Below, piece by piece: positions 14,948-33,482 of a stretch of 64,000 bases of DNA; the first letter of the stretch is position 1, and each line of letters opens with the position of its first letter. The position numbers and the translations under genes were made by a program. The stretch is from an uncultured Paracoccaceae bacterium. Its GTDB lineage: Bacteria; Pseudomonadota; Alphaproteobacteria; Rhodobacterales; Rhodobacteraceae. The stretch lies in assembly GCA_947489705.1 (NCBI GenBank), contig CANLEQ010000001.1, forward strand, positions 277,085-341,084, read 5' to 3'. The notes beneath the pieces were generated by a model. That model saw nothing but the letters and a program-made list of their open reading frames with translations. It did no database searches and was not told the origin of the DNA.

Positions 14948-17608
14948 ATGAATGTCGCCAACGCCGCCGTGACGCCGATGATGGAGCAATATCTCGGCAT
15001 CAAGGCCGGCCATGCGGATGCGCTGCTCTTCTACCGGATGGGCGATTTCTACGAGCTCTTCTTCGACGATGCCGTTGCCGCGGCGGCGGCGCTCGACATC
15101 GCGCTCACGAAACGCGGCAAGCACCAGGGCGACGATATTCCGATGTGCGGCGTGCCGGTGCATGCCTCCGAAGCGTATCTACTCACGCTCATCCGCAAGG
15201 GCTTTCGCGTGGCCGTCTGCGAGCAGACCGAGGATCCCGCCGAGGCGAAGAAACGCGGCTCGAAATCCGTGGTGCGCCGCGAGGTGGTGCGCCTCGTCAC
15301 CCCCGGCACGCTGACCGAGGAATCGCTGCTCGACGCACGGCGGCACAATTACCTCGCCGCCTTCGCCGAGCTACGGGGCGAGGGCGCCGTGGCCTGGGTC
15401 GACATCTCGACGGGCGAGCTGGCGGTGACGCCCTGCCCGCCCGTTCGCCTCGGGCCGGAACTCGCCCGCCTCGCGCCCCGCGAGGTCCTGCTGAGCGAAA
15501 CCCACGACGCGGCCCGCGCGCAGGTCGTGACCGATGCGGGCGCGCATCTGACCCCGCTCTCGCGCGGCTCCTTCGACAGTACGAGCGGCGAGAAACGGCT
15601 CTGCGCATTGTTTCACGTGAGCACGCTCGACGCGTTCGGCTCGTTCGGGCGGGCCGAGATCTCGGCGATGGCGGCGCTGGTCGACTATCTCGAGATCACA
15701 CAGAAGGGAAAGCTGCCGCTTCTGCGTCCGCCGCGCCGCGAAGAGACCGGCGCCACGATGCAGATCGACGCCGCGACGCGCCGCAACCTCGAACTGACGC
15801 GGAGTCTCTCGGGCGGCCGCGAGGGTGCGCTTCTGGCCGCGATCGACCGGACCGTGACCTCGGGCGGCGGGCGGCTTCTGGAACGGCGGCTGACCTCGCC
15901 GTCACGCGATGCGGACCTGATCCGCGCACGCCACGACGGGGTGGCGTTTTTCGTCGATGACGCGACCTTTCGCGAGCGGGTGCGCGAGATGTTGCGCCGC
16001 ACGCCCGACATGGACCGGGCGCTGTCGCGCATCGCGCTCGACCGCGGCAGTCCGCGGGATCTCGCCGCGATCCGCGACGGGCTGGGCCGGGCCGCCGACC
16101 TTGCCGGATTGCAGGGCGCCGATGCGTTGCCGCAGCTTCTGGGCGCGGCCTTCCGGACGCTCGACGGTCACGAAGACATTCTCGCGCGGCTCGACGAGGC
16201 GCTGGTGGCCGAACCGCCCGTTCTGGCACGCGACGGCGGGTTCATCGCGCCCGGCTTCGACGAGGAGCTCGACGAGGCGCGCAGCCTGCGCGACGAGGGG
16301 CGCGGCGTGATCGCGGCCATGCAGGCAGAGTATGCCGAGGAGGCCGGCATTCCCGGCCTCAAGATCAAGCACAACAACGTTCTGGGCTATTTCATCGAGA
16401 CGACGGCGACCCACGCGAAGAAGATGCTGGCAGAGCCCCTGTCGCAGACCTTCATCCACCGCCAGACGACCGCCAGCGCCGTGCGTTTCACCACCGTTCC
16501 GCTGAGCGAGTTGGAAACGCGGATCCTCAACGCGCGCGACCGGGCGCTGGAGATCGAACGGCGGCTCTTCGCGACGCTTTGCGGCGCGATCCTCGACCAT
16601 GCGGGTGGCGTCGGCGACGCGGCGCGGGCGCTGTCGGAGATCGACCTGACCGCGGCGTTGGCCGATCTGGCGGTCGACGAGGGCTGGGTTCGCCCGCAGA
16701 TCGAGGAAGGGCGTGCCTTCGAGATCGAGAACGGACGTCATCCGGTGGTGGAGCAGGCCCTGCGCGCGCAGGGCGCGGGGCCGTTCGTCGCCAACGATTG
16801 CAAGCTTTCGGACGGGGCCGACAAGGCGGCCCTCTGGCTGCTGACGGGGCCGAACATGGCCGGCAAATCGACCTTCCTGCGCCAGAACGCGGTGATTGCG
16901 CTGCTGGCGCAGATGGGGGCGTTCGTGCCGGCGACGCGCGCGCGGATCGGCCTCGTCAGCCAGCTTTTCAGCCGGGTGGGCGCGGCCGACGATCTGGCGC
17001 GCGGACGCTCGACCTTCATGGTCGAGATGGTCGAGACGGCGGCGATCCTGAACCAGGCCGACGAGAACGCGCTGGTCATCCTCGACGAGATCGGGCGCGG
17101 CACGGCGACCTATGACGGGCTGAGCATCGCCTGGGCCACGCTCGAACACCTGCACGAGGCCAATCGCTGTCGCGCGCTCTTTGCCACCCATTACCACGAG
17201 ATGACGCGGCTGTCGGACCGGCTCGAGGGGGTGCGCAACGCCACCATGGCGGTGAAGGAATGGGAGGGCGAGGTGATCTTCCTGCACGAGGTGCGGCAGG
17301 GCTCGGCCGACCGCTCCTACGGGGTGCAGGTGGCCAAGCTCGCCGGGTTGCCGTCTTCGGTCGTGGCACGGGCCCGCGACGTGCTGGCCGCGCTCGAGAA
17401 GGGCGAGGCGGAGGGCAAGAAGACGACGCTGATCGACGATCTGCCGCTCTTCTCGATGGCCGCGACACCCCCTGCCCCGAAGACAGAGCCGCACGACCCC
17501 GCGGCCGCGCGGCTGGCCGGGATTCATCCCGACGAACTCAGCCCGCGCGAGGCGCTCGATCTCATCTACGAGCTCAAGACCCTCGCGCAGGGCACCGTGG
17601 ACCGCTGA
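14948..17608 (+). CDS. mutS: DNA mismatch repair protein MutS
   Basis: An 886-residue MutS. The mismatch-contacting motif [11 protein letters not shown] (Phe-X-Glu) lies near residue 35, the connector and lever domains follow, and the ABC-type ATPase near 635 shows [20 protein letters not shown], Walker B in [16 protein letters not shown] and the late FATHYHEM. The C-terminal segment [14 protein letters not shown] is the usual tetramerisation tail region. Full length with no sign of damage. Monocistronic; convergent with grpE with a 16-base gap. Confidence 0.97.
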
Positions 17609-20767: not shown

Positions 20768-21893
20768 GCCCGATTTCGGCATTTACCTGCATTGGCCCTT
20801 CTGTCAGGCCAAATGCCCCTATTGCGACTTCAACTCCCACGTCGTCGCCCGCATCGACCACAATGCGTGGCGCGCGGCCTATGCCAAAGAGCTTGCGCGG
20901 GTGCGGGCACTGACCGGCGAACGACGTGTCGCGTCGATCTATTTCGGCGGCGGAACGCCCAGCCTGATGGAGGCCCGCACGGTCGAGATGATCGTGTCGG
21001 ATATCCAGCGGCACTGGCAGATCGCCAACGATTGCGAGATCACCCTGGAGGCGAACCCGACCTCGGTCGAGGCCGACAGGTTCCGCGACTACCGCCTTGC
21101 CGGTATCAACCGCGTCTCGATGGGGATCCAGGCCCTCGACGACGCAGATCTGCATCGCCTGGGACGGCTCCATTCGGTCGCCGAGGCGCGCGCAGCCTTC
21201 GATATTGCGCGCGAAACCTTCGACCGGATCAGTTTCGACCTCATCTATGCGCGGCAGGACCAGTCGCTGCACGATTGGCGGCGGGAGCTTGGCGAGGCGC
21301 TCGCCATGGCGGCCGATCACCTGTCGCTCTATCAACTGACGATCGAACCCGAGACGGCGTTCGGGGATCGTTATGCGCGCGGCGGGCTTCGCGGGCTGCC
21401 ATCCGAGGACCTGTCGGCGGACATGTATGCGGTGACGCAGGAGCTTTGCGATGCGGCGGGAATGCCCGCCTACGAGGTTTCGAACCACGCCCGTGCCGGA
21501 TCGGCGTCGCGGCACAACATGATCTACTGGACGGGCGGGGATTATGCCGGCATCGGCCCCGGAGCGCATGGCCGCTTGACCCTCGGCGGGCGCAGGCATT
21601 CCACCGAGACGGCGACGTCGCCGCTGCTTTGGTTGCAGGGCGCGCTGAAGGGCGAGACCCCCGAGACGATCGCCGCGCTCGACGATCTGACCGTCCTGGA
21701 AGAGCGTCTGATGATGGGGCTCAGGATCGGTGACGGCGTACCGCTCGACATAGCCACGCAGGTCGACGATTTTACACGAAAGATCAGTGGCTTGGAAGAA
21801 TATGGCTTGGTCGAGCGGTCGGCGGGACACCTTCGCGTGACATCGTCCGGGCGCCCGCTTCTGAACGCGATCCTGCGCGAGCTATTCGCCTAG
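20760..21893 (+). CDS. hemW: HemW-type radical SAM protein (heme chaperone)
   Basis: A 377-residue radical SAM protein. The 4Fe-4S motif CQAKCPYCDFNSH starts at residue 15 and SIYFGGGTPSLM follows. Members of this group were long called oxygen-independent coproporphyrinogen oxidases but HemW lacks the HemN N-terminal residues and inserts heme into respiratory proteins. The start must be TTG at 20760: no ATG or GTG lies between the rdgB end and the iron-sulfur motif. Coupled to rdgB by an eight-base overlap. Its stop shares a CTAG with the convergent parB stop. Confidence 0.92.
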   Translation: MPEPDFGIYLHWPFCQAKCPYCDFNSHVVARIDHNAWRAAYAKELARVRALTGERRVASIYFGGGTPSLMEARTVEMIVSDIQRHWQIANDCEITLEANPTSVEADRFRDYRLAGINRVSMGIQALDDADLHRLGRLHSVAEARAAFDIARETFDRISFDLIYARQDQSLHDWRRELGEALAMAADHLSLYQLTIEPETAFGDRYARGGLRGLPSEDLSADMYAVTQELCDAAGMPAYEVSNHARAGSASRHNMIYWTGGDYAGIGPGAHGRLTLGGRRHSTETATSPLLWLQGALKGETPETIAALDDLTVLEERLMMGLRIGDGVPLDIATQVDDFTRKISGLEEYGLVERSAGHLRVTSSGRPLLNAILRELFA

Positions 21894-22783
21894 TTTTCGG
21901 CGCCGCCCGTCAGCATGCGACAAAGATTATCCAGTTCTTCCAATGACTTATAGGAAATCGTGATCTTTCCGTCCCCGCGATCGGCGGCATGATCGACGAC
22001 GACCTTCATCCCCAGATTTGCCGCGAGATCCTGTTCGAGGGCGCGGGTATCCGCGTCCTTCTCGGAGCTGGCGGTGGCGCGGCGGCGCGTCGAAGGCTTC
22101 GGCCCCTTGGCCAGCGCCTCGGTCTCGCGCACGGACAGGTTCCGCGCGATGACCTGACGGGCGAGGCCGTCGGGATCGTCGGCGGTGATGAGAGCACGCG
22201 CATGCCCCGCGGTGAGCTTCCCCTCCGCGAGATAGGCCTGCACGCCCGGCGGGAGCGACAGGAGGCGCAGCGTGTTGGCAATGTGCGACCGGCTTTTGCC
22301 GAGCGCCTCGGCCATCTGTTCCTGCGTATGCCCGAAGCGGTCCATCAATTGCCGGTAGCCCGACGCCTCGTCCACCGCGTTGAGATCGCTGCGCTGGATG
22401 TTCTCGATGATTGCGACCTCGAGCACCTCGGTATCGTCAAGACTGCGGACGATCGCGGGCACTTCGTGGACCTGCGCCATCTGCGCGGCACGCCACCGCC
22501 GCTCGCCCGCGACGATCTCGAACGCGTCCGGCTTGGTCGGATGCACGCGCAGGATCAGCGGCTGGATGATGCCCTTCGTCGCGATCGAGGCCGCGAGTTC
22601 CTCTAGGCTTTCGGCGACGAAGCTTTGCCGAGGCTGGTTGGGATTCGGATGGATCCGGTCGATCGCGATGCTGGCTTCGGCGCGGCGCTCTCCGCCCTGC
22701 TGCGGCGCCTCCACCTCGACATCGGCCATGAGTGCCGAGAGGCCGCGGCCAAGCCCCCGGCGTTCCTGCTTTCTGTCGCTCAT
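21890..22783 (-). CDS. parB: Chromosome partitioning protein ParB
   Basis: A 297-residue ParB, the CTP-dependent clamp that loads at parS and organises the origin region. In order: RRGLGRGLSALM (ParA-stimulating end), the CTP-binding GERRWRAAQMA with NIQRSDLNAVDEA, the helix-turn-helix EQMAEALGKSRSHIANTLRLL, and a C-terminal dimer domain ending CRMLTGGAEN. ATG at 22783 has GGAG ahead of it; another ATG lies four codons upstream at 22795. It follows parA directly. Confidence 0.96.
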   Translation of the reverse strand: MSDRKQERRGLGRGLSALMADVEVEAPQQGGERRAEASIAIDRIHPNPNQPRQSFVAESLEELAASIATKGIIQPLILRVHPTKPDAFEIVAGERRWRAAQMAQVHEVPAIVRSLDDTEVLEVAIIENIQRSDLNAVDEASGYRQLMDRFGHTQEQMAEALGKSRSHIANTLRLLSLPPGVQAYLAEGKLTAGHARALITADDPDGLARQVIARNLSVRETEALAKGPKPSTRRRATASSEKDADTRALEQDLAANLGMKVVVDHAADRGDGKITISYKSLEELDNLCRMLTGGAEN

Positions 22784-22795
22784 CTTGCGCTCCAT

Positions 22796-23590
22796 CTATG
22801 CGGCCCCCCGTGCTGCGAGTTCATGTGCCAAGTCGCGATACGCGACGCTTCCCTTCGAGGCGGGATCATAATCCAGAACGGAGCGCGCATAGGACGGCGC
22901 CTCGCTCACGCGCACGTTGCGCGGGATGATCGTCCCGAAGACCAGATCGCCAAGCGTATCCCGGGCGTCCGCAAGAACCTGTTGGGCCAGTCTGTTGCGA
23001 CCATCGAACATCGTCAAGACGACGCCTTCGATCCTGAGGCCGGGATTGGCGCTCTGACGCACCTCGCGCATGGTCAGCATCAGCTGCGACAGACCTTCGA
23101 GCGCGAAAAATTCGCTTTGCAGCGGGACGAGGATCGAATGGGCAGCCACCATCGCGTTGATCGTCAACAGGCTCAACGAGGGCGGGCAATCGATCAGGAT
23201 GAAATCGAGGTCCAGATTCTCGACATCGGGCGCAGTAAGCGCGTCCTTCAGCAGGAAGGACCGCTTGCTGTTCGAATACATTTCAATATCGGCGGAGCTG
23301 AGATCTGCGGTGGCCGACACGATCTTGAGCTTGTCGTATTCCGTCGGCATCAGGACCTCGGAAAGCGACTTTCCCTCCAGCAAGAGGTCATAGGTCGTCA
23401 AATCGCGGGTTTCGGGGTCGATTCCGAGGCCGGTGGAGGCATTTCCCTGAGGATCGAGGTCGACGATCGCCACACCGAACCCGTTCTCCGCCAAAGCCGC
23501 GCCGAGGTTGATCGCTGTCGTGGTCTTTCCGACGCCGCCCTTCTGGTTGACGATCGCAATGGTTTTTGGGCGGCTATGACGGTTCGACAC
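22796..23590 (-). CDS. parA: Chromosome partitioning ATPase ParA
   Basis: A 264-residue Walker-type ATPase of the ParA/Soj group without an N-terminal DNA-binding extension, as in chromosomal systems. The deviant Walker A is IVNQKGGVGKTTTAINLG (residues about 13-30), followed by IVDLDPQGNASTGLG and FILIDCPPSLSLLT. It forms the dynamic nucleoid-bound gradient that moves ParB-parS. The start overlaps the end of rsmG by 17 bases; parB follows within 12 bases. Confidence 0.97.
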   Translation of the reverse strand: MSNRHSRPKTIAIVNQKGGVGKTTTAINLGAALAENGFGVAIVDLDPQGNASTGLGIDPETRDLTTYDLLLEGKSLSEVLMPTEYDKLKIVSATADLSSADIEMYSNSKRSFLLKDALTAPDVENLDLDFILIDCPPSLSLLTINAMVAAHSILVPLQSEFFALEGLSQLMLTMREVRQSANPGLRIEGVVLTMFDGRNRLAQQVLADARDTLGDLVFGTIIPRNVRVSEAPSYARSVLDYDPASKGSVAYRDLAHELAARGAA

Positions 23591-24179
23591 GCGCGATATC
23601 CCTGATTTTCAGAATGGCCGAGGTTGCCGATGTTTTACTAGGTATCGCCTCCAAAGAGAACCGCCATTCCCGCCGGGCGAGATCAATTTCGGCGTCGAAC
23701 CGCTCGCCCTTGGGGAAAAGACAGGTGGCCCCCTGCCCCGCGTGGCGGAAGGCAAAACCCAAAAGGTCCGTCAGAGGCGCGAGCGCGCGGGCGGAAAGTA
23801 TATCCGCCCCGATGGGCTCGACGGTTTCGATCCGCTGGTGAATGACGCGGACATCGAGGCTCAAAAGGCGCGAAACATGCGAAAGGAAGGCGCATTTCCT
23901 TGTATCCGACTCGACGCACACAACCTTGAGCGGCGTTCCCCTCGCGCATATTCCGACCACTATGCCTGGGAGACCCCCGCCGCTTCCCAGATCGCACCAT
24001 GTGCCGTCGCTTGCGCCTGACAGTTGAAAAAGCTGCAGAGAATCCGCGATATGCCGGGACATGACATCGTCGGTGGTCCCACGTCCGATCAGATTTATGC
24101 GCCGGTTCCATTTGAGGAGTTCCGACACGTAGAGCTCGATGGCCTGCAATGTTTCATGTGAAACATCGGCGTCGATCAC
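23574..24179 (-). CDS. rsmG: 16S rRNA (guanine527-N7)-methyltransferase RsmG
   Basis: A 201-residue RsmG (GidB) that methylates G527 of 16S rRNA. The SAM-binding loop [16 protein letters not shown] lies near residue 62, and [10 protein letters not shown] precedes it. The N-terminus [10 protein letters not shown] is encoded by a parS-type palindrome (24151-24166). The start overlaps the mnmG stop by four bases and the stop overlaps parA by 17. Codon third positions are less G/C-rich than in flanking genes. Confidence 0.95.
24151..24166. other. parS-type centromere site in rsmG
   Basis: TGTTTCATGTGAAACA differs from the near-universal parS TGTTTCACGTGAAACA at one central base. It spans codons 5-10 of rsmG, 0.6 kb upstream of parA. 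ParB binding is inferred from sequence and position. Confidence 0.8.
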
Positions 24180-26056
24180 CCGTCCGTTCCCGTCTTTTTC
24201 CGTGATCGCATGGCAAGAAGGATCGCGTTCAACCCGGCAGGTGTCATTCCCTCTATCTTCGTGGCCTGTGCGAGATTGCCGGGACGATTTCCCCGGAGCT
24301 TTTCCTTCAATTCGGACGACAATCCATGAACCCGGTCGAGATCCAAGTCATTGGGAATGGGCGTGGCCTCGTCCTTACGGAGGCGTTCCGCCTCCCGGTC
24401 CTGTCGATCGAGATAGTTTGCATAAACGCCTTCCCGCGCAAGCTGGGTGACGATTTCGGGCGCGAGGTCACCGAGCGCCGGTATGGCCACAAGAATGCGC
24501 TCGGCCGATACCCCGGCGATCGAGAGAAGCTCCGCGCCACTCCTATGCGGGCCATCGGCGGCGAGATTGATCCCGGCATTTATGGCATCTTTATTCGAAA
24601 CGACGGATTCCGAGAGAATTCTCCGCCCTTCTTCGAGATGGGCAAGTTTGGATTCAAAGGCCTGAGCGCGTCGGCGAGATGCAATCCCGAGCGCGAGCGC
24701 GGCCGGCGTAAGGCGTTGGTCGGCGTTGTCCGCACGAAGTTGAAGACGGAACTCGGCACGGGACGTGAACATCCGGTAAGGCTCCGAGACGCCCCGGGCC
24801 GTCAGATCGTCGATCATGACGCCGATATAGGCCTCGGTTCGCGAGAGAATGAGGGGCGGATCACCGCGGACAGTAAGAACCGCGTTGATCCCCGCGATGC
24901 ATCCTTGCGCGGCGGCCTCTTCGTAACCGGTGGTGCCGTTGATCTGACCAGCGAGCCACAGACCATTAAGCGCCTGAAGCTGAAGCGTGGAATCCAGCGC
25001 ACGCGGGTCGACATAGTCATATTCGATCGCGTAGCCGGCCTGTACAATCTCCGCCTGTTCCAATCCTGCGATCGAACGAACATATCTCTCCTGTACGTCC
25101 TCGGGCAAGGATGTCGAGATTCCGTTCGGGTAAACGAGATCGCTTTCCAGCCCTTCCGGCTCGAGAAAGATCTGGTGCGAGTCCTTGTCGGCGAAACGGG
25201 CGATCTTATCCTCGATCGAGGGGCAATATCGAGGGCCCACCCCGCTGATATTACCGCTGTACATGGCGGACTTATCAAGATTTTCGCGAACGATGTCATG
25301 GGTTTGCGCATTCGTATGCGTGATTGCGCAGGAGATCTGCCGCGCCTTGGGCGTGTTTGAGAGAAAAGACAGCATAACCGGTTCCGGATCGCCGGGCTGG
25401 GTCTCCAGGACGGACCAGTTGATGGTCCGCCCATCCAACCGGGGCGGCGTTCCGGTCTTGAGCCGCCCCATGGGGAGCGACATGCCGTAAAGCCGATGCG
25501 CAAGCGGGACAGAGGGTGACTCCCCTACCCGTCCGCCCGGTATCTGACGCTCGCCGATATGCATGACACCGTTGAGGAACGTTCCCGTCGTCAAAATCGC
25601 AGCATCGCAGGCGAGATCCCCTGCCCGTTCCAGACGTAATCCGGCAAGCCGCCCGTTAAGGACAACAAGATCGACCACCTGATCCTCGACGACTTGAAGA
25701 TTTTCCTGCTCAGAGATCGCCTGCTGGACGGCCGCACGGTACAGCTGCCGGTCCATCTGCGCGCGCGGTCCTTGAACCGCCGGACCTTTGCGCCGATTCA
25801 GCAGCCGGAACTGAATCCCGCCCGCATCGGCGGCTTCGCCCATGATACCACCGAGCGCGTCGACTTCGCGGACAAGATGTCCCTTGCCCAGTCCCCCGAT
25901 CGCGGGATTGCAGGACATCGCGCCGATCGTATCTCGCCGAAGCGTGACCAAGGTCACATCTGCCCCGGCCCTTGCCGCGGCGGATGCGGCTTCGACGCCG
26001 GCATGGCCGCCGCCGACCACGGCGATCTTCGGCCGTCGATGTTTCACGTGGAACAT
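24176..26056 (-). CDS. mnmG: tRNA uridine-5-carboxymethylaminomethyl modification enzyme MnmG
   Basis: A 626-residue FAD enzyme that, with MnmE, makes the cmnm5/nm5 side chain at tRNA wobble uridine 34. The FAD-binding loop [19 protein letters not shown] is at residues 13-31; [12 protein letters not shown] and [10 protein letters not shown] are family segments, and the C-terminal helical domain follows. The first residues MFHVKH are encoded by a parS site. One base separates its start from the mnmE stop region, and the downstream rsmG overlaps by four bases. Confidence 0.96.
26040..26055. other. parS centromere site at mnmG start codon
   Basis: TGTTTCACGTGGAACA (other strand TGTTCCACGTGAAACA) fits the parS consensus TGTTNCACGTGAAACA exactly. 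It overlaps the mnmG initiation codon, so the peptide MFHVKH is partly dictated by the binding site. It lies 2.5 kb from parA and about 3.2 kb from the proposed origin. Confidence 0.88.
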
Positions 26057-26057
26057 T

Positions 26058-27335
26058 TCACTTCCCTATGCAGAACCTCGAGAAAATATCCCCCAAGAGA
26101 TCCTCAATATCTACTCGACCGATCATCGTTTCAAGCGCCACCGTTGCATCCCGCAAATGGAGCGCGATCAGGGCGTCGTCTGACCGCGCGTCTATCGCAG
26201 CGCGGGCGTTTGCCAAATGAGAGAGCGAATTCCGCATCGCGTTGGCATGCCGTTCCCGAATTGCGACTGACGAAGAGGCGGTTCGATTTCTCAAGATGCC
26301 GGCTATCTCGTTCACCAGTTGGTCGATCCCCTGCCCCGTCAGACCGGAGACGTCACCTTCGCCGATATCGGATTTGCCGCGTTTGACGATATCGCCCTCG
26401 CGCAGCTCAATCGGAAGCGGTGCATCATCCCGCTGCGTCAGCACCACGCGAAGATCCGCCTCAAGCGCGCGAGCACGGGCAAGGTCTATCCCGGCGGCCT
26501 CGAGCGGATCGGCGGTATCTCGAAGCCCGGCAGTGTCGAGGAACGTCACCGGCAATCCGGACAGATCGGTGCGAACTTCGATCACGTCGCGTGTCGTTCC
26601 GGCAATCTCGGATGTCAGGGCGACCTGGCGACGCGCGATCGCGTTGAGAAGGGTCGATTTTCCCGCATTCGGCGCTCCAAGGATTGCGACCTCGAACCCG
26701 TCGCGGATCCTCTCAGAGACCCCATAGCCTTCGAGTTCCCGGGTCAGCGCGGAAATTCCTGCATCGATATGGCCAAGGACATCCGGCAAAACGTCGACCG
26801 GTACCTCCTCGTCGGCAAAATCGAGCGTCGCTTCGATCAGCGCACCCGCTTCGATCAAGCGGCGGCGCCAATCCTGGACGCGGAGGGACAATTCTCCCGA
26901 GAGGACGCGCTGTGCCTGCTGGCGTTGAAGCTCGGTCTCGGCTTCGATGAGATCCGCCAGACCCTCGACCTGCGTAAGGTCCATCCGATCGTTCTCGAGC
27001 GCACGCCGGGTGAATTCGCCGGCAAGCGCCGGCCGCGCCCCGGCAAAAGTCGCGAGGAGATCGAGGACGGCGCGCACTACCGCCCGGCTGCCGTGGAGAT
27101 GGAGTTCCACGCAATCCTCCCCGGTGAAACTTCGGCCAGCGGAGAACGAGAGGATCAGCCCGGTATCGAGGATGTCACCGTTCCGATCGCGTATTCGTCG
27201 TAATCCCGCCTGCCGTTCCGGCGGGCGGGATGATATTATTTCATCAATGATTTCAAATGCTTGAGGACCAGATACCCGGATCACCGCGACACCCGCCTTT
27301 CCGGGCGCTGTGGCCTCGGCAAAGATGGTGTCCAT
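26058..27335 (-). CDS. mnmE: tRNA modification GTPase MnmE
   Basis: A 425-residue MnmE, partner of MnmG. The N-terminal tetrahydrofolate-binding domain, helical domain and inserted G domain are all present: G1 [15 protein letters not shown] near 225, G3 [15 protein letters not shown] near 270, and the C-terminal FCIGK whose cysteine is invariant. Length is at the short end of the family's 425-455 range but no domain is missing. Separated from rho by nine bases and from mnmG by one; same direction, very likely one operon. Confidence 0.96.
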
Positions 27336-28743: not shown

Positions 28744-29196
28744 CTAGAACGGACGCGCGACGACCGAGACCACGATGACGATCAGCAAAAGGGTCGGCAC
28801 CTCGTTCATCATGCGGAAGGTCCGGCCCGGAAGCGAGCTTTCGCCCGAGGCCAATGCCTTGCGCTGCTTGCCGCACCACATGTGGAACCAGGTGAGCGCG
28901 ATCACCGAGACGGCCTTGGTCCAGGGCCAGATCGCGCTCCAGTCGACGAGGCCGGGCGTGGAGACCAGGATCAGGCCGAAGATCCAGGTGAGGATCATCG
29001 CCGGATTCATTATAAGTTTCAGTAACTTGCGCTCCATCGTCTCGAGCATCTGCGCCTTGTCGGTCCCGATGCGGGCCTGTTCGGCGTGATAGACGAAGAG
29101 CCGCGGCAGATAGAAGAGACCCGCCATCCACGCCACGAACGAGATGATGTGCAGGGATTTGATCCAGGGATAGAGCGCGAGGAGCGTGTCGGTCAT
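28744..29196 (-). CDS. hemJ: Protoporphyrinogen IX oxidase HemJ
   Basis: A 150-residue membrane protein with four helices. The N-terminal LYPWIKSLHIISFVAWMAGL carries the conserved histidine of HemJ, and FYLPRLFVYHAE and TWFHMWCGKQRK supply further conserved residues. HemJ converts protoporphyrinogen IX to protoporphyrin IX in most alphaproteobacteria. The start at 29196 matches the family length of about 145-150. It is the leftmost-reading gene next to the proposed origin; hemE, often found here in other alphaproteobacteria, is absent. Confidence 0.92.
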   Translation of the reverse strand: MTDTLLALYPWIKSLHIISFVAWMAGLFYLPRLFVYHAEQARIGTDKAQMLETMERKLLKLIMNPAMILTWIFGLILVSTPGLVDWSAIWPWTKAVSVIALTWFHMWCGKQRKALASGESSLPGRTFRMMNEVPTLLLIVIVVSVVARPF

Positions 29197-29252
29197 GATC
29201 GAGCTTCTTAAATAGATATAGAGAAAAGGAAAGTAGATGAGTGCTGTAGGGC

Positions 29253-29261
29253 GGTGGATAA
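29253..29261 (-). other. DnaA-box-like 9-mer
   Basis: GGTGGATAA on the top strand (TTATCCACC on the other), eight of nine against TTATCCACA. Confidence 0.55.
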
Positions 29262-29270
29262 CGTGGATAA
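29262..29270 (-). other. DnaA-box-like 9-mer
   Basis: CGTGGATAA (TTATCCACG), eight of nine, directly abutting the previous box in the same orientation. Confidence 0.55.
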
Positions 29271-29385
29271 GCGTTCCGTGCCAAGCTGTCCGCAGGCCCC
29301 TCGGACGAAGATCGCCACCGCTGTTGACGAGCGCGCAAAATTCATCGATCCCTTTCGTTATCAGTAACTTGGTTCGAGCCTGGCC

Positions 29386-29394
29386 TGTGGATGA
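29386..29394 (-). other. DnaA-box-like 9-mer
   Basis: TGTGGATGA (TCATCCACA), eight of nine against the consensus. Confidence 0.5.
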
Positions 29395-29504
29395 ACCTGT
29401 GGTCTGAGGCGAGGGTCGCGGTGGACGGCGGATCGGCCGATGGGATATATCCCGGTCGCTGTCCACGGGTATGGAACGGCGCGAATCTGAGAACCGAACG
29501 GGGA

Positions 29505-29513
29505 ATATCCACC
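29505..29513 (+). other. Weak DnaA-box-like 9-mer
   Basis: ATATCCACC, seven of nine, opposite orientation to the first three. Confidence 0.35.
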
Positions 29514-29567
29514 GAAGCGCACGGCCTCCTCTTTGACCCCATTCCGCCCGCAGACTTTTCCCGGGAG

Positions 29568-29576
29568 TTATCCATG
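29568..29576 (+). other. Weak DnaA-box-like 9-mer at maf start
   Basis: TTATCCATG, seven of nine; it overlaps the maf start codon, so DnaA or initiation there could affect maf translation or transcription. Confidence 0.35.
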
Positions 29577-30167
29577 CACCTTATCCTCGCTTCCGGATCG
29601 CAGACGCGGGCCGACCTGCTCAGCCGCGCGGGGTTGAGCTTCGAGATCGAGATCGCGCGGATCGACGAGGACAGCGTCAAGGCGTCGATGGTGGCCGAAG
29701 GGGCGCCGCCCCGGGATGTGGCCGACGCGCTGGCCGAGGCGAAGGCGCGCAAGGTGTCGCTGCGCCGGCCGGGTGCCATCGTCCTTGGCTGCGACCAGGT
29801 GCTGGCGCATCACGGCGCGATCCTGTCGAAGCCGGAAACACCCCGGGCGGCGGGCGAGCAGCTGAGACGTCTCAGGGACGATCGGCACACGCTTCTCTCG
29901 GCAATCGTGGCTTACGAGGATGGCGAGCCCCTCTGGCGGCATATCGCGACGGTGCGCCTCGCGATGCGGGATCTGAGCGACGTCTATATCGACGAGTACG
30001 TCACGCGGAACTGGGAGAGCATCCGTCACTCCGTCGGGGGCTACAAGCTCGAGGAGGAAGGGATGCGGCTCTTCCGGGCGGTCGAGGGGGATTATTTTGC
30101 CACACTGGGGCTTCCGATGATCCCGCTCTTGTCCTGGTTGATCGACCGGGGCAATCTGCAGGCATGA
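29574..30167 (+). CDS. maf: Maf-family nucleotide pyrophosphatase
   Basis: A 197-residue Maf/YceF protein that hydrolyses modified or canonical NTPs. The N-terminal MHLILASGSQTRADLLSRAG is the family signature, and GCDQVL and the later SVGGYKLEEEGMRLF match. The start at 29574 has GGGAG seven bases upstream. First rightward gene from the proposed origin; aroE overlaps its stop by four bases. Confidence 0.93.
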   Translation: MHLILASGSQTRADLLSRAGLSFEIEIARIDEDSVKASMVAEGAPPRDVADALAEAKARKVSLRRPGAIVLGCDQVLAHHGAILSKPETPRAAGEQLRRLRDDRHTLLSAIVAYEDGEPLWRHIATVRLAMRDLSDVYIDEYVTRNWESIRHSVGGYKLEEEGMRLFRAVEGDYFATLGLPMIPLLSWLIDRGNLQA

Positions 30168-31602: not shown

Positions 31603-32272
31603 TACCGAGACCACGGGCTTCGAGCCCGACGAGGGCGACCGCATCGTCGAGATCGGTGCGGTCGAGCTGATCGGTCACATGCCGACCGGCCGCACCTTTC
31701 ACGAATACATCAATCCGCAGCGGTCGATGCCCGACGGCGCGTTTCAGGTCCACGGCCTCGGCGACGAGTTCCTGCGCGACAAGCCGGTCTTTGCCGAGGT
31801 GGGACAGGCCTTCCTGGATTTCGTGCAGGATTCAAAGCTCGTCATCCACAATGCCGCGTTCGACATGAAATTCCTCAACGCCGAACTGGGATGGATGAAG
31901 GCACGGCTTTTGCCGATGGATCAGGCAGTCGATACGCTGGCCATCGCGCGGCGCCGGTTTCCCGGTGCGCCGGCATCGCTCGACGCGCTCTGCCGAAGGT
32001 TCGGGATCGACAATTCCAACCGCACGCTGCACGGCGCGCTGCTAGATTCCGAGATCCTGGCAGAGGTGTATCTGGAACTCATCGGCGGTCGTCAGCCCGA
32101 TTTCGGGCTGGGACAGGCGCAGTCGGGCAGCGACGCAGTCGTGGCGGACGGGGATTGGCGGCCGCAGCCGCGCAGCACGCCCCTGCCTCCGCGGATCACC
32201 GAGGCGGAACGCGCCGCCCATGCGGCCTTCGTGGCCGGCATGGGCGACGCGGCCCTCTGGGCGAAGGTCTAG
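31583..32272 (+). CDS. dnaQ: DNA polymerase III epsilon subunit (3'-5' exonuclease)
   Basis: A 229-residue proofreading subunit. The DEDDh exonuclease motifs are visible: VLDTETTGFEPDEGD, HNAAFDMKFLN and HGALLDSEILAEVY. The C-terminal 50 residues should bind the alpha subunit. It ends the maf-aroE-coaE-dnaQ unit, and its stop shares CTAG with the convergent secB stop. Confidence 0.95.
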   Translation: MREIVLDTETTGFEPDEGDRIVEIGAVELIGHMPTGRTFHEYINPQRSMPDGAFQVHGLGDEFLRDKPVFAEVGQAFLDFVQDSKLVIHNAAFDMKFLNAELGWMKARLLPMDQAVDTLAIARRRFPGAPASLDALCRRFGIDNSNRTLHGALLDSEILAEVYLELIGGRQPDFGLGQAQSGSDAVVADGDWRPQPRSTPLPPRITEAERAAHAAFVAGMGDAALWAKV

Positions 32273-32790
32273 CTGACGGGCGCCTGCTGCTGCTGGGCGG
32301 CGGCCTGACGCTGGGCAAGACCCTGACGGTAGAGTGCCACGAAGTCGATCGGCTCGAGGTTGAGCGCGGGGAAGCCGCCGTCGCGGGTCACGTCGGACAC
32401 GATGCGCCGGATATAGGGGAACATCAGGCGCGGCGCCTCGATCAGAAGGAACGGGTGCAGCTGTTCCTCCTTGACGTTCTCCGCGGTGAAGATGCCGCCG
32501 TATTCCAGCTCCATCACGAACAGGATATCCTCGGAGTCCTTGTTCTTGGAGGTGATCTTGAACTTGCCAATCACCTCGTACTGGTTGCTGTCCTCGCCGC
32601 GCTTCTTGGCGTCGAGGCCGACCTGGACCGACACGTCGGGCTTGACCTGGCCCTCGACGGGCTTCGATGCGAGGATATTCTCGAACGACAGGTCACGAAT
32701 GAACTGGCCCAGGGGGCGAAGCTGCGGGGTCGGCGGCGGGGTGCCGTTGCCGTTGGTCTGCGGGGTCTCGGGTTCGTTCTCGGCCATCAT
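32269..32790 (-). CDS. secB: Protein-export chaperone SecB
   Basis: A 173-residue SecB tetramer subunit that keeps preproteins unfolded for SecA. Conserved parts: RDLSFENILAS, QVGLDAKK, and PYIRRIVSDVTRDGGFPAL with NLEPIDFVALY. Two adjacent ATGs (32790 and 32787) both lie at usable distance from GGAG, so the first residue is uncertain. A low-complexity Pro/Gln/Asn N-terminus and a Gln-rich end flank the core. Follows fxsA by 50 bases on the same strand. Confidence 0.95.
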   Translation of the reverse strand: MMAENEPETPQTNGNGTPPPTPQLRPLGQFIRDLSFENILASKPVEGQVKPDVSVQVGLDAKKRGEDSNQYEVIGKFKITSKNKDSEDILFVMELEYGGIFTAENVKEEQLHPFLLIEAPRLMFPYIRRIVSDVTRDGGFPALNLEPIDFVALYRQGLAQRQAAAQQQQAPVS

Positions 32791-32840
32791 GATCTCCGGA
32801 TGAAAGGTTTTCGACTGGTTAGCAGATGCGACGCATCGCC

Positions 32841-33374
32841 TCAATGCCGGGTCCAGCCGGAGGGCCTGCGGTTGGGGTCCGGCTCCTTGATCTCGACTTC
32901 CTCGTAATCGCCGTCGATCACGTCGCTGCGTCCGCCCGGCTGCGGGCGTCGCGGGCGCGGTCCCGGTTGCGGCTGGACACGCGGGCCGGGCTGGGGCTGG
33001 GGCCCTGGGCCCTGGCCCATATGTCGCACCTCGATCCGGTCGCGGATCTGGCGGAACACCCAGGCGCGGATGCCCGGGACGAGCAGCGCAAAGCCGCAGG
33101 CATCGGTGAAGAAACCCGGCGTCAGCAGCAGCGCACCCGAGAAGAGGATCATCGCGCCATGGGCCAGCGCCTCGGTCGGATCGCGCAGGTCGTTGAACGA
33201 CTTGCGCAACTCCGCGAGGGCCAGCGCGCCCTGCGACCGGACCAGCATCGTGCCGAGCATCGCCGTCAGCAGCACGATGATCAGCGTCCAGCCCAGCCCG
33301 ATCGCGCCGCCGACCTGGATGAAGAGTGCGATCTCGATCATCGGTACGGCCACGAAGAGGGCGAATAACCACAT
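32841..33374 (-). CDS. fxsA: FxsA-family membrane protein
   Basis: A 177-residue protein with about three hydrophobic segments in residues 1-110 and a hydrophilic, Pro/Gln/Arg-rich tail. MWLFALFVAVPMIEIALFIQVG is the family's N-terminal hallmark and LLLTPGFFTDACGFALLVPG the second. FxsA in E. coli relieves F-plasmid-dependent exclusion of phage T7 when overproduced; its normal role is unknown. The PGPQPQPGPR-type repeats in the tail are low complexity. Divergent from the TimA-like gene. Confidence 0.88.
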   Translation of the reverse strand: MWLFALFVAVPMIEIALFIQVGGAIGLGWTLIIVLLTAMLGTMLVRSQGALALAELRKSFNDLRDPTEALAHGAMILFSGALLLTPGFFTDACGFALLVPGIRAWVFRQIRDRIEVRHMGQGPGPQPQPGPRVQPQPGPRPRRPQPGGRSDVIDGDYEEVEIKEPDPNRRPSGWTRH

Positions 33375-33482
33375 GAGAACCTCCTTGGGCGCCTGCGGGC
33401 CGGTGGACTCGGCCCATGCACGACCCTACATAGGGATGAACCGCGTGCGATGCCACGCCCGACCCATGGTTTCGAGGTTCAG

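Follow-up and report, generated by a model that had tools for sequence, protein, structure and literature searches.

The window analyzed here is a stretch of 64,000 nucleotides from a 4.34-Mb draft genome in 156 contigs, belonging to an uncultured, Palleronia-like bacterium placed in the Rhodobacteraceae. Genes to the left of the spacer between hemJ and maf (hemJ, rho, mnmE, mnmG, rsmG, parA, and parB) are all transcribed leftward, and those to its right (maf, aroE, coaE, and dnaQ) rightward (Table 1). This transcription divide was among the grounds on which an initial annotation of the sequence had proposed the spacer as a probable chromosomal origin of replication (oriC), and it holds. So does the A+T-rich stretch beside hemJ: put at about 73% in the annotation, it measures 73.0% A+T, the highest value of any 37-mer in the window, reached by 8 of 63,964 such 37-mers at two places (27228 to 27231 and 29202 to 29206). 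The parAB genes and two parS-like sites were likewise found 3 to 7 kb from the spacer, as claimed, the sites themselves lying 3 to 5 kb to its left; a scan of the window with the parS consensus returned these 2 sites against 0.04 expected in shuffled sequence. The dnaA locus is 298 kb from the spacer.

Elsewhere in the window, the open frame at 32269 to 33456 runs for 395 codons with a SecB domain on residues 244 to 382 only, so its true start is probably far downstream. A tRNA gene stands near the contig end (62686 to 62758), and a search of the window against Rfam at the gathering threshold returned a tRNA as the sole match. Compared with plasmids, the spacer and its flanks gave four weak matches, all inside the coding sequence of hemJ or maf.

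Table 1. Features of the predicted origin and its surroundings, in window coordinates
Feature	Position	Strand	Basis or remark
Predicted chromosomal oriC (hemJ-maf spacer)	29197..29573	.	377 bp; divergent pair in 117/122 loci
hemJ, left border gene	28744..29196	-	Pfam UPF0093
maf, right border gene	29574..30167	+	Pfam Maf
A+T-rich stretch, predicted unwinding site	29204..29240	.	73.0% A+T; overlaps triplet repeat
G-phased triplet repeat at DnaA-trio position, AAG TAG ATG (A) GTG CTG TAG	29231..29249	+	109-spacer alignment, lag-3 test
Short G+C-rich linker, GGCG	29250..29253	.	From sequence
DnaA box TTATCCAC, exact	29254..29261	-	At most one mismatch in 45/109 aligned spacers
DnaA box TTATCCAC, exact	29263..29270	-	At most one mismatch in 43/109 aligned spacers
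IHF-like site WATCAN5WTR, TATCAGTAACTTG	29359..29371	+	Motif match; predicted
DnaA box TCATCCAC, one mismatch (middle box)	29387..29394	-	At most one mismatch in 56/109 aligned spacers
Right-end box region: recurring box, degenerate here, then TTATCCAT into the maf start	29556..29575	+	
parB and parA	21890..23590	-	Pfam ParB and AAA_31/ParA
parS-like site	24150..24165	.	One mismatch
parS-like site	26040..26055	.	One mismatch

Replication skew

GC skew is -0.027 in the left part of the window and +0.029 in the right part, and it was negative in 8 of 9 sampled stretches further left. Cumulative skew had been named as a check on the origin; the change of sign between left and right agrees with one, but the in-window minimum falls not at the spacer but at 15574 (-598), 13.6 kb away, with a near-equal trough by 28000 (-559), in a window that ends its contig and covers 34 kb of the right arm. 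On a 3.25-Mb contig from the same genus (G011), 40 sampled stretches placed the skew minimum at 3.1 to 3.2 Mb and, roughly half a chromosome from it, the maximum near 1.5 Mb; the local minimum at 3,115,773 is 16 kb from hemJ at 3,099,530. The sampled minimum was 0.2 to 0.36 Mb from hemJ in another genome (G135), and in a third (G010) the sign of the skew flips across hemJ, with samples noisy elsewhere and of the wrong sign at the last one. Skew thus agrees just roughly with oriC at the spacer and does not pinpoint it, and the oriC assignment stays a strong prediction.

Conservation of the spacer and its DnaA boxes

Loci for comparison were gathered by HemJ: 42 came from genomes of the genus and family, the window's own included, as the best 30 per genome search with a distant HemJ paralog (L028) excluded, and 80 were named loci, the best 80 of at least 590, so that all were top-ranked and not random draws. 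These 122 loci contain same-genome repeats between collections. The divergent hemJ-maf pair is kept in 117 of them, and the 117 spacers comprise 109 distinct sequences (own included) that span 358 to 462 bp. These 109 sequences hold 95 exact TTATCCAC boxes, distributed over 66 of them, where shuffles average 0.95 (an excess of about 100-fold), and boxes within one mismatch number 432 against 36.9 in shuffles, with at least one in every spacer (109/109).

The window's own spacer has no TTATCCACA among its boxes, and just two of them are exact. These two form the co-oriented minus-strand pair that the annotation had described as two abutting DnaA-like boxes near 29253 to 29270, and both proved to be exact octamers. 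One-mismatch boxes in the spacer region lie at 29387, 29505, 29568, and 29581. Over the whole window such boxes show no clear excess (20 against 13.8 expected, with 10 of 100 shuffles reaching 20); it is their clustering that departs from chance, with 6 boxes inside 400 bp at the spacer and no more than 2 anywhere else in the 324 kb examined of this genome, within which a box cluster was looked for in the dnaA region and none was found. Exact TTATCCAC occurs 19 times in the 4.34-Mb draft, and the only two that lie close together are those of the spacer; any other two that share a contig are at least 5.5 kb apart. As a separate observation, TTATCCAC is rarer in the genome than its reversed control (19 versus 57), as if counter-selected away from the origin.

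The boxes recur at particular positions in the alignment (Table 1). The third box, noted earlier near 29386, is a one-mismatch box with an aligned counterpart in over half of the spacers, and the right-end box is present with at most one mismatch in 41 of 109; further aligned positions carry boxes within one mismatch near 29286 (34/109) and near 29460 (14/109). Weaker boxes had also been proposed at 29505 and 29568. The former has one mismatch here but a counterpart in just 1 of 109 aligned spacers, and we rejected it as a conserved box. The latter stands in that it has one mismatch and that its TTATCC (29568 to 29573) is well conserved, but it overlaps the maf start codon and runs beyond the aligned region, and the recurrence count excludes it. 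The palindrome GGGATATATCCC at 29442, likewise put forward as an origin feature, was discarded: perfect 12-bp palindromes number 32 over the window, this one included, and the columns that it occupies are unconserved in the alignment. GANTC shows no excess over the 109 spacers (336 versus 400 in shuffles). CtrA-like TTAA-N7-TTAA sites with one mismatch number 122 against 55 over the same spacers, which may merely reflect the A+T stretch.

In the five loci of the 122 where maf was absent from the fetched stretch (four from Paracoccus, L116, L133, L156, and L157, and one at a contig end), which were set aside from the 109-spacer set and read separately, a triplet repeat (described below) and box-like sites are all the same retained upstream of hemJ, and the unit is therefore more than a maf promoter. 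These loci bear on the possibility that the spacer is a mere promoter shared by hemJ and maf, its DnaA boxes being regulatory and oriC lying elsewhere, for example by dnaA. DnaA doubles as a transcription regulator, the right-end boxes adjoin the maf start, and skew does not pinpoint the spacer, all of which such a promoter would accommodate; it would not account for the retention of repeat and boxes where maf is missing, for a dnaA region without a box cluster, or for the family-wide conservation of both the spacer length and a strand-specific repeat. The origin of Caulobacter, moreover, has been described at the equivalent place relative to hem genes (PMC1914354), and we judge the promoter explanation very improbable. 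The hemJ-maf spacer is instead very likely to be the chromosomal oriC, and of a known kind. Its kept borders, narrow length range, excess of exact boxes, and recurring box positions argue for this assignment, as do the A+T stretch beside the box pair, the nearby parAB genes and parS-like sites, and the change of skew sign near hemJ in G011.

A phased triplet repeat beside the box pair

Between the A+T stretch and the box pair sits a G-phased triplet repeat, which in the window holds one extra base, (A), between ATG and GTG. In the 109-spacer alignment, the block at 29238 to 29251 has a mean information of 0.996 bits, the highest of the elements scored and in the top 2.5% of equal-length windows; the boxes have 0.44 to 0.90 bits. 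The new observation is that the best-conserved block of these spacers is a nearly C-free triplet repeat and not a DnaA box; the annotation had mentioned neither this repeat nor the IHF-like site. From the boxes toward the left, the triplets met most often are TAG (72/109), TTG or ATG, ATG or ATT, ATG, ATG, AAG, and AAA, and the middle base of triplets 2 to 5 is T in 54 to 65% and A in 5 to 19% of the 109 spacers. GATGATG occurs in 62 of 109 spacers on the repeat strand and in 0 on the opposite strand. C makes up 0.7% of the 21-nt repeat segments and is absent from 95 of 109, the window segment having one. In 93 of 109 family segments, three or more C-free NNG triplets follow one another without a break (middle T 227, A 95, G 45).

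At lag 3 there are 381 G-G pairs where shuffles give 188.7 (z 18.6, a score that, like the other z-score given here, is inflated by kinship among the 109 spacers; 0 of 200 shuffles reach the count), those at lag 6 number 265 against 157.1, and lags 1, 2, and 5 are depleted. T shares the lag-3 and lag-6 excess with G in the repeat. The lag-3 G excess is seen singly in 107 of 109 spacers and is absent from control segments elsewhere in the spacer. A reading of GATGATG shifted by one base gives 3'-TAG-5' triplets with a middle A, but it does not keep step with the TAG that adjoins the boxes, which makes it the less likely one. As a sequence, the G-phased triplet repeat is conserved; what it does, taken up below, we infer. 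As a search tool, a joint pattern of GATG, GTAGG, and GTGGAT with gaps was tried on 149 family genomes and rejected. It gave 28 listed matches in 26 genomes, with 14 for the control, and it is too strict to serve, since among the listed matches just those in G000 (the window's own genome), G045, G055, G106, and G124 lie beside hemJ; in the window's own genome the single match is the hemJ-maf spacer, with one control match.

Regions upstream of COG1806 in other alphaproteobacteria served as an outgroup: 68 genomes have COG1806, and the best 30, no two from one family, were read. Three (L181, L195, and L206) were dropped for an A+T maximum outside 1040 to 1235, leaving 27. Of the 30 loci, 10 had the divergent neighbor identified, and hemE was that neighbor in all 10 loci tested. 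Repeats of the outgroup include TGGTGGTGGTGGTAGG (L191), TAGTAGTAGTGG (L178), and TTGTTGTTG (L197 and L204). Pooled over the 27 hemE-COG1806 spacers, G-G pairs at lag 3 number 179 against 128.5, with the excess seen singly in 25 of 27, and 24 of the 27 have three or more C-free NNG triplets in a row (middle G 45, T 36, A 35). COG1806 (PF03618) was found neither in the genome of the window nor in the one other family member in the sample; the Rhodobacteraceae may have lost this gene, which borders origins of the Caulobacter type.

A period of three bases might also arise from a short coding extension of hemJ, with no part in an origin, and in the window the hemJ frame is indeed open through the repeat, to 29466. 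In 68 of the 109 spacers, however, an in-frame stop separates hemJ from the repeat, and these show the period just as clearly (z 16.0), which excludes coding as the cause in those spacers, while the test leaves the other 41, the window's own included, uncleared. In the outgroup, too, the flanking gene is hemE (10/10 tested) and not hemJ, yet the repeat is present. We regard a coding source of the period as extremely improbable.

Trio rules and the DnaA residue at position 187

In Bacillus subtilis, the consensus of the DnaA-trios is 3'-GAT-5', and they occupy a 5' tail adjoining the boxes (PMC8287927). Their middle base must be A according to a review (PMC6727663), and that A contacts Asn187 of DnaA; T or G in its place slows opening, and C does not (PMC10721633). 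Pelliciari et al. (2021) suspected that deviant trios without a middle adenine exist (PMC8287927), and none of the trio-reading residues of DnaA is reported to be universally conserved (PMC10721633). Among the titles and abstracts listed in searches of a collection of open-access papers, none describes alphaproteobacterial or middle-T trios.

The published rule for trios asks for a minimum of three NAN triplets no more than 16 bp from a box. The window has two such triplets, and 40 of 109 spacers conform to the rule, no better than shuffles (mean 33.3, maximum 40). A GWW rule (G first, then A or T), which was devised after seeing the alignment, describes 47 of 109 spacers against 25.9 in shuffles (maximum 28) and 0 on the other strand, and over half of the spacers miss it.

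We then compared DnaA residues at loci taken as the best 30 each of 61 family, 96 class, and 60 phylum genomes. Where B. subtilis DnaA has Asn187, Ile190, Ile193, Arg202, and Glu228, alignment places Tyr, Val, Leu, Lys, and Glu in the DnaA of this genome. Tyr occupies position 187 in 31 of 31 Rhodobacteraceae loci, in 26 of the 27 other-alphaproteobacterial loci parsed (of 28; the exception has Phe), and in 3 of 3 further alphaproteobacterial loci. None of 27 loci from elsewhere in the phylum has it (N 8, A 7, T 6, Q 4, S 2), and E. coli DnaA has Gln at the equivalent place. On these alignments, Tyr at DnaA position 187 is class-specific. Since the position varies outside the alphaproteobacteria, Tyr need not be an adaptation to the repeat.

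Proposed mode of opening

We consider it highly probable that the spacer is oriC, with DnaA docking on the box pair, stepping leftward over the triplets, and opening the A+T stretch next to hemJ. DnaA would bind the spacer boxes and dock on the tandem pair, then spread leftward along the G-phased repeat at about one molecule per three bases, and this spread would open the A+T-rich DNA beside hemJ. Of the two strands, the plus strand would be kept single-stranded, since it carries the triplets on the 5' side of the boxes, as the B. subtilis scaffolds do. A bend by IHF at its predicted site may bring the middle box and the right-end boxes into the complex; helicase would presumably load at the opened site, and ParB with parS would segregate the new origins.

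In such a scheme the triplets would act like the DnaA-trios of B. subtilis, except that the fixed letter is G, that T prevails in the middle, and that the DnaA bears Tyr in place of Asn187. Carried to the whole class, this becomes a more tentative proposal, to which we would give somewhat less than an even chance: that alphaproteobacterial chromosomes are opened at a second kind of DnaA-trio, strand-specific, nearly C-free, and with a fixed G (3'-GNW-5', middle T, G, or A) where other trios have a fixed middle A, along which steps a DnaA whose base-reading Asn has been replaced by Tyr class-wide.

Opening might instead follow the E. coli way, in which IHF bends the DNA and DnaA at the left boxes captures the T-rich strand, the triplets being simply a G+T-rich part of it along which no stepping occurs. 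The order of elements (A+T DNA, G+C linker, reversed box, and far forward box) is that of E. coli oriC, an IHF-like site lies at 29359 in a genome where an IHF-alpha gene is present, and Val190 and Leu193 of its DnaA match E. coli and not B. subtilis. Such opening does not predict a three-base period of G and T, however, and in the aligned IHF block WATCAN5WTR is present in just 23 of 109 spacers and missing from 86 (TCAN5TTR is present in 49), its occurrences anywhere in the 109 spacers totaling 36 against 14.6 in shuffles. We think it unlikely, though well worth keeping in view, that the origin is opened in this way without stepping. IHF bending and triplet stepping could both operate, and the three-base period favors stepping.

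An oriC at the hemJ-maf border is what would be expected; the surprise is that conservation in the family's spacers peaks in a phased triplet repeat which, at the site of the trios, misses the published middle-A rule. The repeat offers a concrete class-wide candidate for the deviant trios, alongside a class-specific change in the DnaA residue that reads the middle base. If this reading is true, the opening code of bacterial origins and the protein that reads it would have diverged jointly in a whole class, and sequence could serve to find origins in alphaproteobacterial drafts whose skew is weak.

Comparison with known origins

The oriC of E. coli K-12 (L247) resembles the spacer in its A+T stretch, G+C linker, reversed box, additional boxes, and forward box at the far end; in E. 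coli the reversed and forward boxes are known as R1 and R4, and IHF has a place there too. It differs in its GATC-rich repeats, which the spacer lacks, and in a DnaA with Gln where Tyr stands here; mnmG, which borders E. coli oriC, is 3 kb off in the window.

With the basal unwinding system of B. subtilis, the spacer shares a co-oriented box pair, a short G+C linker, and triplets 5' of the boxes on one strand, followed by A+T DNA. TAG, which is 3'-GAT-5' when read in the other direction, adjoins the boxes in 72 of 109 spacers, as in B. subtilis. Unlike B. subtilis trios, triplets 2 to 5 mostly have T as the middle base, and the window lacks the three NAN triplets of the published rule.

Origins closer to hand are those of the same family and class. 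For 101 Rhodobacteraceae chromosomes, Ori-Finder origins were chosen by the minima of skew and of local GC and by how close parAB lies, and the description of them drawn on here gives no border genes, box layout, or triplet repeat (PMC6699656). The origin of Caulobacter crescentus (Cori) lies between hemE and COG1806 (PMC1914354). Its borders thus differ from the hemJ and maf that are kept here in 117 of 122 loci, and of the CtrA sites found in origins of the Cori type (TTAA-N7-TTAA), the window spacer has no exact copy. Cori and the hemE-COG1806 origins are nevertheless like the spacer in having a hem gene as neighbor, DnaA boxes, an A+T stretch, and an IHF site (PMC1914354), which in the spacer is a predicted one, and the hemE-COG1806 loci of our outgroup share with the hemJ-maf spacer the same kind of triplet repeat.
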